Origin: Halogeometricum pallidum JCM 14848
Lineage (GTDB): Archaea > Halobacteriota > Halobacteria > Halobacteriales > Haloferacaceae
Reading direction: 5' to 3'
Assembly (NCBI RefSeq): GCF_000337095.1
Contig: NZ_AOIV01000006.1
Span: 1 to 64,000, forward strand
Length of the DNA stretch: 64,000 bases
Shown here piece after piece: positions 1 through 37,474 of this stretch. Under the pieces are notes generated by a model. The model saw nothing but the letters and a program-made list of their open reading frames with translations, was not told the origin of the DNA and made no database searches. Position 1 is the first letter of the stretch. Each line of letters starts with the position of its first letter. A program made the position numbers and the translations under genes.

Positions 1-223
1 TCTCGACGCCCGAGACGTCCTCGTACCCCTCCTCGAACAGGTGCGCGAGGTGTCGGCCGGAACTGCAGCCGAGCTCCAGAATCGAGGGGTCGGACCCGGC
101 GAATCGGTCGATAGCGTCGGCGAGCATCTCGCTCGTCTCGTTGGGTCCGTAGTAGGCGTAGTACTCCGGCGAGTACGCACCGGAACGTCCCGTCCACCGT
201 CGATGAACGTCGTTAGAATCCAC
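1..223 (-). CDS. Class I SAM-dependent methyltransferase, 3' part cut by window edge
   Basis: Reading from a GTG at 223 gives an N-terminal fragment of about 74 residues that ends at the window edge. It contains SPEYYAYYGPNE, then the glycine-rich SAM-binding motif I as LELGCSSGRHLAHL. The product closely parallels the complete methyltransferase at 36857-37474: both have exactly 15 residues before the first shared block, which supports the GTG start here. The substrate cannot be told. The rest of the gene lies outside the window. Family call is solid; start is an inference from the paralogue. Confidence 0.8.
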   Translation of the reverse strand, partial: MDSNDVHRRWTGRSGAYSPEYYAYYGPNETSEMLADAIDRFAGSDPSILELGCSSGRHLAHLFEEGYEDVSGVE

Positions 224-292
224 TGCGTGGCCGTTCGCGGGGGAGGGCTATAGTCCCGTCGTCCCGACGGATGCGGAATCGACCGGAGGACC

Positions 293-31311: not shown

Positions 31312-33603
31312 TCATTCCGAGACGTGGACGAGCGACGTTTTCAGACGGCCGCTCAGCATCTTGAACGTGGTCGCCAATCCCGCCCCGTAGGCGAGGTGGG
31401 CGACGAACGCCACCAGGATGTAGCCGACGAGTTCCCACCCGGACTGGCCGCTGTAGAACGCCACGAAGAACCCCGGGAGCATCACCACGGCGAACACGAG
31501 GCCCGTCCTGAGGAGGGGTTCCCCCGGCAGGAAGTCCGCGAAGGTGACGAACAGAAGCGCCCACGTGGTCATCCCGCCGCCGAGGAAGATGAGGTAGCCG
31601 ACGAGCGGACTGCCCTCCACCCCGACGAGTTCGGCGAGTTCGGCGAACGACACCAGGTCGAACACGCCCAGGAGGGAGCCGACGTAGAGGACGGCCGACA
31701 TGAGCATCATGCCGACGAAGCCGGCGACGGCGCCGACGACCACGTCGTTGCCGATGCCGGAGAGGTCCTCGAACGCCTTCGGACTGCCCGTGTCGGGTTC
31801 GTCCTTCTGGTCGCCGACCATCTGGCTCTCCGCGGCGGCCCGCGTCTCCTCGGGCGAGGTGCTGGTGACGCCGTACTTCTCGGCGAGTCGCGCCTCGAAC
31901 GCCTGCCACTCGCGGGTGAACTGCTGGGTCTTCTTCAGGTCCCACACGTCGGCGTCGCGGACGAGGTCGCCGAACCACAGCGAGTGCAACATGTTGTACA
32001 GCCACAGCAGGACGCTGAAGCCGATGACGAACGCGCCCACGGAGGCGACGTCGTGGAACAACTGGAACTTCGGCGGGTAGGAGGCGAACCGCCGCGGCAT
32101 CCCGAGAGCGCCCATTATCAGGAACGCCATGAACGTGACGAACACGCCGACGGAGGTGAGCACCGCCTGCAGGCGCGCCAGACGTTGGTTGTACATCCGT
32201 TCGGTGATGATGGGGAACCAGTAGTAGGAGGCGGCGAACATCTGAAACGGGATGATCGCCATCAGGATCATGTGGAAGTGTCCGACGACGTAGTAGGTGT
32301 CCTGATACATCACGTCGATGGGGATGGACGCGAGGAAGACGCCCGTGATCCCTCCGATGACGAACAGACCGAGGCCGCCGGCGGAGAACAGCATCGGCGC
32401 GGTGAGCCTGATGTCGCCCTTCCACATCGTCGTCATCCAGTTGAACACCTTGATGGCGCTCGGAACGGCGATGGCGATGGAGACGATCATAAAGGAGGTG
32501 AGGAGTCGCGGGTCCATCCCCGTCGTGAACATGTGGTGGGCCCAGACGCCGAACGACATCACGCCGATTGCGAGCGTCGAGTAGACGACGAACTTGAACC
32601 CGAACAGCTTCCGTCCCGAGAACTTCGGGAGGATGGTGCTCATCAGCCCCGTCGCGGGCAGGAAGATGATGTACACCTCCGGGTGGCCGAAGAACCAAAA
32701 CAGGTTCTGATACAGTATCGACCCGCCGGCTTCGACGGCGTAGAAGGAGGTGCCGAAGTTGCGGTCGAGCAGCAGCATCAGGATGGCGCTCCCCAGCAGG
32801 GGGAACGCGAAGAGGATGATGCCGCTCGTCGTCAGCATCGACCACGTGAAGATGTCGAAATCGCCGATATCGACGTCCGGTCCGCGCTTCATGAAGATGG
32901 TGACGATGAAGTTTATCGCCCCCATCATCGTCGATAGCCCGCTCAGGTGCAACCCGAGTAACATGAAGTCTATCTGCGGGTTGGCCAACTGCGTCGACAA
33001 CGGGGTGTACAGCGTCCACCCCGTCGCCGGCGGGGCCAGCGTGTACAGGATTTCCAGCATCGAGCGCGGCAGTCCGAGCCCGAGAACCCGCGCGATGACC
33101 TCGGTGATGAGACCGCCGCGGACGAGGAGCAGCGACGGCGGCAGGAGCCAGAAGGCGATGGCGTTGATGCGCGGGAACGCCAAATCGTCGGCGCCGATCA
33201 GCAACGGAAGGAAGTAGTTCGCCATCCCGAAGAACACCGGCGTGACGAAGAAGAAAAGCATCGTCAGCCCGTGGGTCGTGAACAGCGCGTTGTACGTCTC
33301 CTCGGACCACACGTCGACGGCGGGCGTCAGCAGTTCGGTCCGAATCATCATCGAGTCGACGCCGCCCCACAGGGCCGCTACGGTCCCGAAGACGAGATAG
33401 AGGAGGCCGATGTCCTTGTGGTCGACCGTCGTCACCCACCGGAGGAGGTTCGCCTTCTTCTCGCGTTCCTCCGTCTCGTCGCCCCGGACGTGTCCGCCGT
33501 CCGCGAGGATGGTCCGCGAGAGATTCCGGAACGACCCGTACCGCGCGCGGAGGACCACCCCGACGACGAGACACGCCACGAACGCGTACGGGACGACGCT
33601 CAT
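31312..33603 (-). CDS. coxA: Haem-copper oxidase subunit I with long C-terminal extension
   Basis: A 763-residue subunit I from ATG 33603 (ggag about 7 nt upstream). Haem and copper ligands are visible: His in FTTHGLTMLFFF, His/Tyr in FFGHPEVYIIFLP, the His pair in GVWAHHMFTTG, and His residues in VVGHFHMILMAI. The canonical twelve-helix core ends near residue 530. Beyond it are a charged linker with SESQMVGDQKDEPDTG and about 165 residues containing four or five more membrane segments. The TATA-like box at 33672-33679 excludes the upstream ATG at 33669. The protein reduces oxygen and pumps protons in the cytoplasmic membrane. Confidence 0.93.
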   Translation of the reverse strand: MSVVPYAFVACLVVGVVLRARYGSFRNLSRTILADGGHVRGDETEEREKKANLLRWVTTVDHKDIGLLYLVFGTVAALWGGVDSMMIRTELLTPAVDVWSEETYNALFTTHGLTMLFFFVTPVFFGMANYFLPLLIGADDLAFPRINAIAFWLLPPSLLLVRGGLITEVIARVLGLGLPRSMLEILYTLAPPATGWTLYTPLSTQLANPQIDFMLLGLHLSGLSTMMGAINFIVTIFMKRGPDVDIGDFDIFTWSMLTTSGIILFAFPLLGSAILMLLLDRNFGTSFYAVEAGGSILYQNLFWFFGHPEVYIIFLPATGLMSTILPKFSGRKLFGFKFVVYSTLAIGVMSFGVWAHHMFTTGMDPRLLTSFMIVSIAIAVPSAIKVFNWMTTMWKGDIRLTAPMLFSAGGLGLFVIGGITGVFLASIPIDVMYQDTYYVVGHFHMILMAIIPFQMFAASYYWFPIITERMYNQRLARLQAVLTSVGVFVTFMAFLIMGALGMPRRFASYPPKFQLFHDVASVGAFVIGFSVLLWLYNMLHSLWFGDLVRDADVWDLKKTQQFTREWQAFEARLAEKYGVTSTSPEETRAAAESQMVGDQKDEPDTGSPKAFEDLSGIGNDVVVGAVAGFVGMMLMSAVLYVGSLLGVFDLVSFAELAELVGVEGSPLVGYLIFLGGGMTTWALLFVTFADFLPGEPLLRTGLVFAVVMLPGFFVAFYSGQSGWELVGYILVAFVAHLAYGAGLATTFKMLSGRLKTSLVHVSE

Positions 33604-33671
33604 GGAGAACTCCGAAGAGAGAACGGTTCGACTGCGTAGTTCATCTCGTCTTCGGGAAAGGACTTCCATCG

Positions 33672-34945: not shown

Positions 34946-35372
34946 AGATGGACACGGGTTCCCTAGAGGAGTCTCTTACCACGGGTTCGCCTCCCTCGAC
35001 GAGGGCAACGAGGTCCGGCGCGCCGTGTTCGAGGCGGCGCGCCTCACGAGCGACTTCGACCTCGTGGTCGCCCGCGACGGCCGGGGGGTGCCGACCTCGG
35101 CGCTGAGCGAGGGCGAGGTGGAACTGCTCGGCGTCGCGGTGGCAGTGGCCGGTCACCGGGCCTACGACGTGGACGAACGCGTCCCCGTCGTGACGCTCGA
35201 CCGACTGGGCGGCATCGCCGACGACAACCTCGGCCGCCTGACGGAGTACCTGCTCGACCGCTCGGAGTACGTCGTCACCACCGCCTACCCCGAGCACTCC
35301 TCGGTGACGGGACACGAGGTCGACCCCGCCGAGTGGCGCGTCGTCTCCGACCGGACGGGGACGCCGCACTGA
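34935..35372 (+). pseudogene. C-terminal remnant of an SMC-like/archaea-specific ATPase
   Basis: The open frame begins right after an in-frame stop at 34932 and contains the C-terminal ATPase head region of an SMC/Rad50-like protein: a run from YHGFASLDEGNEVRRAVFEA, an ABC signature-like SEGEVELLGVAVAVAG, and a Walker B-like VPVVTLDRLGGIADDN. No Walker A, coiled coil or normal start is present, only an internal GTG at 35025 that would give 115 residues. It is best read as the 3' end of a gene whose larger part was deleted, next to the palindromes at 34866-34945. Expression as a short protein from 35025 cannot be excluded. Confidence 0.6.
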
Positions 35373-35553: not shown

Positions 35554-35877
35554 ATGGATTCAGATTCCGACGACGTCGCGGTGACGATGGAGATTACGGG
35601 GTCGTACGACGAGGTACTGTCGAAGCTCCACGCCGAAGAGGAGGGTCGGCCCGGCCTCGAGCCCCTGCTGGAGGACGTGGACATCCTTCTGGACACGCTC
35701 GACCGGATGGAGGAGGGGACGCGGTCGGCCATCGCCGACAAACTGCCCGAGGAGATGACCGTCGACTACGACGCGGAAGCCGTCGTCGACCTGCTGCAGG
35801 TGCTCAAACGCTACGACCTCGTCACGCTCGAAGGCAACACGTGGAAACCCGGTCCGGAAGCGGAGCGCCCGGAGTAG
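35554..35877 (+). CDS. Small acidic protein, winged-helix-like C-terminus, unknown function
   Basis: A 107-residue highly acidic protein. Residues 24-60 are helical with LLEDVDILLDTLDRMEEG, and the C-terminal part, AEAVVDLLQVLKRYDLVTLE followed by GNTWKPG, has the helix-turn-strand pattern of a winged-helix wing. No cysteine or metal motif. A TATA-like gcttatgg is about 30 nt upstream of the ATG, so it is monocistronic and leaderless. I recognise no named family; a small regulator or adaptor is possible. Confidence 0.65.
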   Translation: MDSDSDDVAVTMEITGSYDEVLSKLHAEEEGRPGLEPLLEDVDILLDTLDRMEEGTRSAIADKLPEEMTVDYDAEAVVDLLQVLKRYDLVTLEGNTWKPGPEAERPE

Positions 35878-35920
35878 CGGACGACGCTGACCCTGTCCGG
35901 ACCGACCCGCTCGCGCCCCG

Positions 35921-35976
35921 TTACGGCTTCAGCAGCACCTTCGTGACGCCCTCTTCGCGCTCCGGATAACCCGGCC
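35921..35976 (-). pseudogene. Short remnant resembling the C-terminus of a zinc alcohol dehydrogenase
   Basis: On the minus strand the frame ending in TAA at 35921 reads GYPEREEGVTKVLLKP, which looks like the last residues of medium-chain dehydrogenases. Homology cannot extend beyond about 18 residues because the next gene's stop begins at 35999. Too short to be certain; it agrees with other decay in this interval. Confidence 0.3.
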
Positions 35977-35998: not shown

Positions 35999-36697
35999 TC
36001 ACTCCTCCCCGGTTTCGTCGCGTCCGTCTCCCGCTTCGCGTCGACGTCGCGACGCTCGGTGTTCCTCCCGTCGGCGCTTCACCCGAAACTGCCGGTACCG
36101 CTCCTCCTGTTCCCGCTGAGCCAACGACCGCTCGATGTACCGCTCGTCCGCTTCGAAGTCCGGAATCAGCCGGTGGGAGAGGTAGTTCACGCGCACGCGG
36201 AGACGGTATGTCTCCGCGGCGAGTCGACGGGCGACGTCCGTCGTCTCCGCGAGTTTGACCGCGGTTTCGAGGACGCTCTCGTACGCGCCGGCTATCTCGT
36301 CGTCCAGCGAACTTGTCCCGATGATGCCGTAGCCCCGGTCTTCGATCCGCGTCGTGATGTGGGTGCTCAGGAACAGGGGCACGACGAGTCCGGACAGTTT
36401 CGTCTCCACGAGGAGCAGTTCGGGGTGCGTCGCCCGCGCCTCCGCGAGTTCTCTGAGGGCTATCTCCCCCTCGCGTTCCGCGCCGCGGGTGTGCAGGCCG
36501 GCCGCCTCGTCGAACTCCTCGTCCAGTCGCGTGCGGAGCGTCCGGTAGCGTTCGAGCACGTCTAAGAGGAGGAAGACGAGTCCGTCCCGACGGCGTTCGA
36601 GCACGTGCCGCCCCTTCCGGGCGACTTCGAGTTTCTCGGTGACCGCGACGAGTTCGTGGTGCGTCGGTGCGACCCGGCTGTGCCGACGGCGTGTCAT
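35999..36697 (-). CDS. Orphan paralogue of A-type ATP synthase subunit D
   Basis: A 232-residue all-helical protein with the subunit D layout. The N-terminal coiled coil has RVAPTHHELVAVTEKLEVAR and RHVLERRRDGLVF, the central loop is the family signature RGYGIIGTSSLDDE, and the C-terminal coiled coil has RVNYLSHRLIPDFEADERYI followed by an Arg/Glu-rich tail. Subunit D is the central rotor shaft of A/V-type ATPases. None of the other ATPase subunits is encoded here, so this is a stand-alone copy. The core is Arg-rich compared with the acidic neighbours. ATG 36697 is preferred; 36751 would add 18 residues with no family match. Confidence 0.75.
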   Translation of the reverse strand: MTRRRHSRVAPTHHELVAVTEKLEVARKGRHVLERRRDGLVFLLLDVLERYRTLRTRLDEEFDEAAGLHTRGAEREGEIALRELAEARATHPELLLVETKLSGLVVPLFLSTHITTRIEDRGYGIIGTSSLDDEIAGAYESVLETAVKLAETTDVARRLAAETYRLRVRVNYLSHRLIPDFEADERYIERSLAQREQEERYRQFRVKRRREEHRASRRRREAGDGRDETGEE

Positions 36698-36856
36698 CTC
36701 GTACGACCGCTTCGATTTCCAGGAGCATAGCTCCACCTTCGAGACCCACACCGACCGAGTCGATGGTTTCGACCGCGTTCGCTCGGCGCCGCGTTCGACT
36801 GCTCCCGACCGGTGGATTCCGGGGAGGCTTTACTCCTCGACGCCGTCCCACCGTCC

Positions 36857-37474
36857 GTGCAACCGGACGACAACCGCCGCGGCTGGGCCGAGCGCTCCGG
36901 GGATTTCTCGCCGGCCTACTACGCCGACATCGGGCCGAACGAGGTGAGCGAGACGCTCGCCGCCGTCTTCGAGCACTACGTGGACGAGGACGCCGCGATA
37001 CTGGAGGTCGGCTGTAGCTCCGGCCGCCACCTCGCGCACCTGCTCGACCGGGGGTACGAGAACCTCACCGGCGTCGACATCAACGGCGACGCCTTGGACG
37101 TGATGGCCGAGTACTTCCCCGACCTCGCCGAGACCGGAACGTTCCGCGTCGGCGCCATAGAGGACGTAGTCGCCGAGTTCGACGACGACGCCTTCGACGT
37201 GGTGTACTCCGTCGAGACGCTCCAACACGTCCACCCCGAGGAGACGTGGGTGTTCGAGGAGCTGATACGCGTCACCTCCGACCTCCTGATAACGGCCGAG
37301 AACGAGGGCAATAGCCCGCAGCGCGGCCGAGACGGGGCCGAAGTGAGCTACGTCAACGACGAGTTCCCGCTGTTTCACCGCAACTGGAAGCGGGTGTTCT
37401 CCGACCTCGGCCTCGCCCAACTCCTCGCGGAACCGGGCAAGCGCGACACGGTCCGCGTGTTCCGCGTGCTCTGA
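36857..37474 (+). CDS. Class I SAM-dependent methyltransferase
   Basis: A 205-residue methyltransferase. Motif I is ILEVGCSSGRHLAHLLDRGY, followed by an acidic residue in GVDINGDAL, motif II/III near FDVVYSVETLQHVHPEE, and ELIRVTSDLLITAENEG. The GTG at 36857 is chosen over the GTG at 36812 because a TATA-like gctttactc lies at 36827-36835 and the paralogue cut by the window start has the same 15-residue N-terminal spacing. The RSGxxSPxYY block shared by the two copies may define the acceptor pocket. Acceptor unknown. Confidence 0.82.
   Translation: MQPDDNRRGWAERSGDFSPAYYADIGPNEVSETLAAVFEHYVDEDAAILEVGCSSGRHLAHLLDRGYENLTGVDINGDALDVMAEYFPDLAETGTFRVGAIEDVVAEFDDDAFDVVYSVETLQHVHPEETWVFEELIRVTSDLLITAENEGNSPQRGRDGAEVSYVNDEFPLFHRNWKRVFSDLGLAQLLAEPGKRDTVRVFRVL

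Follow-up and report, generated by a model that had tools for sequence, protein, structure and literature searches.

The D-like gene and its surroundings

The stretch of DNA analysed here (the window) comprises 64,000 nucleotides of the Halogeometricum pallidum JCM 14848 genome. It carries, on the minus strand, an intact gene for a paralogue of AtpD, the rotor subunit D of the A-type ATPase, with the following features at the locus:

34985..35357 (+), remnant of an archaea-specific SMC-like gene in which 43 bp from the N-terminal end continue in frame into the last 112 codons, recognised by homology and reading frame
35554..35877 (+), conserved acidic ORF of 107 amino acids between the SMC remnant and the paralogue, 93% identical in the congener G039
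35919..35962 (-), end of the coding sequence of an alcohol-dehydrogenase-like gene (REEGVTKVLLKP*), which marks the replacement boundary by homology to L087
35999..36697 (-), ORF of the D paralogue, 232 amino acids, assigned by the PF01813 match, orthologue alignment, AlphaFold2 model and Foldseek
36311..36334 (-), foot loop GYGIIGTS, residues 122-129 of the paralogue
36812..37474 (+), methyltransferase (Methyltransf_25), divergent neighbour, 92% identical in G039 and 76% in a further congener, G040

The ORF begins with the ATG at 36697, at the position where the orthologues also begin, and ends with the stop at 35999. The encoded protein matches the whole PF01813 model (1-196) with 109 bits (cut-off 25.7) and an E-value of 3e-31, and also scores above the cut-off of the subfamily model TIGR00309. 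None of the NCBIfam equivalog models for subunit D was passed; the best score was 149 bits, where 261 were required. The AtpD-type GYGIIGTS signature pointed out in an earlier note on this DNA is indeed present, and its RGYG core is invariant across all paralogues and all canonical D proteins compared. The same note described an Arg-rich rather than acidic surface, which agrees with the composition: 40 Arg and 5 Lys are balanced by 45 Asp and Glu, giving a net charge of 0, versus a mean of -20 (range -36 to -13) for canonical haloarchaeal D, with about 16 Arg and 20 Lys. The paralogue is thus neutral and not strongly basic. Public records name such genes V-type ATP synthase subunit D, and no description of the paralogue was found in the literature, mostly that available without subscription. 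A bacterial-type promoter and terminator scan, using models unsuited to archaea, returned none at the locus.

The gene lies outside any ATPase operon, as had been noted before; its neighbours are cox genes, the 107-aa ORF, the methyltransferase and a glyoxalase. It could not be the housekeeping copy, since the ordinary atpD was found on another contig of the same genome, directly behind atpB (G000:C25:96479-97060, 197 bits). The paralogue is therefore an extra copy, and the earlier reading of the gene as a paralogue of AtpD, which the lack of a second atpD would have overturned, was borne out. The genes for subunits F and C are each present once, on the same contig as canonical atpD, which rules out a second complete ATPase. 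A recent duplication was also ruled out, by an identity of about 31% between canonical D and the paralogue and by the very long stem of the paralogue clade.

The congener G039 carries an intact rdfA-SMC pair at the same locus (L087 7290-9840), in the order cox2, rdfA, SMC, 107-aa ORF, alcohol dehydrogenase, HtrA and methyltransferase, with no D paralogue. In the window the order is cox2, SMC remnant, 107-aa ORF, last dehydrogenase codons, D paralogue and methyltransferase, and homology to L087 stops at 35962, inside the G039 dehydrogenase. Comparison of the two orders indicates that the paralogue stands where the congener has two other genes. The rdfA gene that formerly adjoined the SMC remnant is gone from the window. 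The remnant itself is located about 650 bp from the paralogue and is 68-70% identical to the SMC-like protein encoded beside the paralogue in Haloferax, whose subtype it shares. For the 107-aa ORF no Pfam match was obtained. In G040, the paralogue flanks the same methyltransferase gene on its opposite side.

Two further observations concern other parts of the window. A cut-off fragment at 2-226 (-) is similar to the methyltransferase at 36812-37474 (53% over 75 aa) and represents a second member of that family, and the cytochrome oxidase subunit I encoded at 31312-33669 (-) carries a C-terminal DUF6789 extension (residues 641-775).

Divergence from canonical subunit D and predicted fold

Among the 78 positions invariant in haloarchaeal and other archaeal D proteins, the paralogues keep 34 and change 44 (56%), and the lost invariants are scattered along the whole length of the protein. 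At 24 columns the paralogue clade is fixed to a residue other than the canonical one. The motif of the A3B3 collar, KRRVNALEF in canonical D, reads R[LVI]RVNYL[TS]x in the paralogues, with a collar Arg and the Ala replaced, the latter by Tyr. In the D subunit of E. hirae, residues R165, R166, A169 and L170 contact A3B3 (PMC3772951). The foot is altered as well, at nine of its 20 invariants, including the change from NIMGVVVP to KLxGLxVP near the hairpin. The core motifs PT, GxxxL, RVNxL and ExEE are retained, and the foot loop RGYGxxGT is kept in all paralogues. In Thermus, the loop of D at residues 115-120 inserts into the socket of subunit d, the archaeal C (PMC5758568), and by alignment the GYGIIGTS loop of the paralogue would be its equivalent.

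An AlphaFold2 model, built from 47 sequences with one plasmid-database row left out of the alignment, had a mean pLDDT of 80 and contained a helix at residues 13-76, a short helix at 78-86, a beta hairpin at 93-113 and a helix at 130-228; confidence was low in the foot (residues about 80-130). Significant Foldseek matches in the PDB were subunit D of V/A-type ATPases, with TM-scores of 0.73-0.80 for most of the top matches. The predicted fold is that of subunit D, an antiparallel helix pair with a hairpin foot.

Thirteen paralogues formed a single clade (100/99) in a tree of 58 D proteins. The clade joins haloarchaeal D through a stem some 9 changes per site long; a branch of this length and an unusual amino-acid composition make its exact branching point unsafe. 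Purifying selection is clear in the Haloferax copies (dN/dS 0.11-0.17; a near-identical plasmid pair was uninformative) and probable for the window copy, with dN/dS of about 0.3 to the nearest orthologues at dS near or above 0.75.

Distribution and genomic context of the orthologues

A PF01813 match was found in 168 of the 171 Haloferacaceae genomes, and 17 of these contained two. Orthologues of the paralogue are present in only ten of the 171 genomes and thus absent from about 94%: the window genome, its congener G040, four Haloferax genomes (G023, G024, G032, G036), Halogranum rubrum (G044), two Salinigranum genomes (G165, G168) and one genome of a further genus (G170). Named carriers within the family are Haloferax massiliensis, H. 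denitrificans, H. sulfurifontis, Haloferax sp. Q22, Salinigranum salinum and Halogranum rubrum. The other seven genomes with two matches had partial, weak or duplicated canonical sequences, and the weak second matches in G108, G110, G137, G154, G095 and G097 were rejected as orthologues, being partial and below the cut-off. A contig scan returned seven named genomes with an alignment as query and none with a single sequence.

One carrier was found outside the Haloferacaceae, Halorarius litoreus of the Natronomonadaceae, and plasmids of H. alexandrinus and H. lucentense account for two more copies. When 392 genomes of the order and 393 of the phylum were sampled evenly, no paralogue was seen apart from that of family members. 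A virus-borne origin was considered and rejected: no relative occurred in viral contigs, and the matches in a phage collection were D-like sequences of only 23-27% identity. The loci are unrelated between lineages and partly plasmid-borne, and the paralogue is an accessory-genome gene with sporadic inheritance. In Salinigranum salinum, a fragment of another D paralogue, 37 codons long and frame-shifted (L047 5562-5671), is a sign of turnover.

No ATPase genes were found near the paralogue in any genome seen. In this sense the description of the gene as stand-alone is accurate, but it does not extend to Haloferax, where in all six records the next gene downstream is a homologue of the cell-shape gene rdfA (PF21811), with an archaea-specific SMC-related gene overlapping it. 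The gap between the paralogue and rdfA is 65 bp in the annotated Haloferax plasmids, and the three genes likely form an operon headed by the paralogue. They lie in a larger island:

L048 2776-15399, Haloferax plasmid island: SecY paralogue, DUF106 membrane protein, amino acid permease, ABC transporter, D, rdfA, SMC

Where the junction could be read across in Haloferax genomes without the paralogue (G026, G031, G037), the DUF106 and SMC genes are absent along with everything between them; in G026 a deletion scar remains, with the first part of the DUF106 gene running into the final 24 codons of the SMC gene. The D, rdfA and SMC genes of Haloferax are therefore gained or lost together, within a single island of roughly 13 kb, a scar of which lies at L183 10199-10368.

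Outside Haloferax this arrangement was not recovered. The window contains the SMC remnant alone, and no rdfA or sph gene adjoins the paralogue in Salinigranum, G170, Halogranum, Halorarius or G040. The neighbours in Salinigranum, G170, Halogranum and Halorarius are unrelated to those in the window, and none common to all lineages was found. Those that recur are the methyltransferase in two congeners, a GH15-like gene in G168 and G170, and the ABC pair in Haloferax. Within the Haloferacaceae, the SMC subtype is present in six of the ten genomes with the paralogue versus 20 of the 161 without (p 0.001, uncorrected for phylogeny). Leaving Haloferax aside, the figures are 2/6 versus 20/150 (p 0.20), or 3/6 if the window remnant is counted (p 0.04). 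G040, G165 and Halogranum rubrum keep the paralogue without that SMC subtype. The link of the paralogue to RdfA/Sph is suggestive overall and weak outside Haloferax.

Possible functions of the paralogue

The protein resembles the AtpD of archaeal A-type ATP synthases and V-type ATPases (PF01813, TIGR00309) in its full-length homology, predicted fold, hairpin and RGYGxxGT loop, but differs from it as a diverged second copy outside the ATPase operon, neutral and Arg-rich, with patchy distribution. In Haloferax its neighbours, an RdfA-family protein and an archaea-specific SMC-related protein, recall the RdfA-Sph3 module of Haloferax volcanii (HVO_2174-HVO_2175). The RdfA-Sph3 pair shows widespread synteny among haloarchaea and is required for rod formation (PMC10869688); the portion of the H. 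volcanii work drawn on here mentions no D-like gene. Unlike the H. volcanii module, the pair linked to the paralogue is of a distinct subtype, and the window lacks an intact pair.

Three roles had been proposed in the earlier note: an alternative rotor shaft, an ATPase inhibitor, or a protein reused for another function. The last fits best, in view of the long stem, the new clade-specific conserved positions and the patchy inheritance. A housekeeping shaft is not expected to look like this, because turning in the same A3B3 and holding the same F should preserve the deep invariants. We give about an even chance to the reading that the paralogue is a neofunctionalised coiled-coil adaptor, rich in Arg and working outside the rotary motor, possibly with RdfA/Sph modules. 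The diverged protein would no longer turn as the shaft of the ATPase and would act apart from the motor, and its most plausible partners would be the SMC-like RdfA/Sph modules, with a role in cell shape or in filament or chromosome organisation. In the window genome, where the partner pair is deleted, it may use another Sph partner or be a leftover. The narrower proposal, that mobile islands carry a shaft subunit recruited into an Sph/RdfA assembly as a coiled-coil partner in the cytoskeleton or in chromosome organisation, seems doubtful to us. The retained fold and the putative C-docking foot loop count against an adaptor, as they suit a role related to the ATPase.

Such a role could be regulatory. 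With its foot loop docked in the socket of C (d) or on F, and A3B3 poorly engaged, the paralogue would be a cap or decoy silencing part of the synthase. The loop remained invariant in all paralogues while the collar residues changed, and the single-copy F and C subunits are possible targets; the changes in the foot itself, KLxGLxVP among them, and the lack of linkage to ATPase genes argue against it, and we regard regulation as a real possibility that is nevertheless rather unlikely. Replacement of canonical D in the same A3B3-F-C complex under some condition, altering coupling or stability, is weakened as an explanation. The modelled full-length D fold, with its similarity to solved V/A-ATPase shafts, and the conserved core motifs would permit it, and in E. 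hirae neither R165A nor R166A in D abolishes assembly or ATP hydrolysis (PMC3772951). Yet F and C would be shared with canonical D, and a shaft serving the same partners has changed more than half of the deep invariants, A3B3 contacts and the collar Ala among them; together with its absence from most of the family and from the vicinity of ATPase genes, this makes a shaft improbable.

The two deletions or replacements that flank the gene in the window, where rdfA and most of the SMC gene were lost, could also mean that the paralogue of this strain is a decaying leftover that is still unbroken, and the fragmentary copy in Salinigranum salinum agrees with such a course. The full-length ORF and the dN/dS of the window copy speak against decay, as do the intact copies in G040, G165 and G044, which also lack that RdfA/SMC subtype, and we consider it very unlikely.

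It is unusual to find a subunit D without its ATPase, and such genes are currently called ATP synthase subunits by annotation pipelines. If the paralogue is a repurposed shaft, it would be an example of the reuse of a rotary-motor part; if it is a regulator, it would represent a new way of controlling the archaeal ATP synthase. The Haloferax copies are found in a genus with good genetics, so that the question is directly testable.
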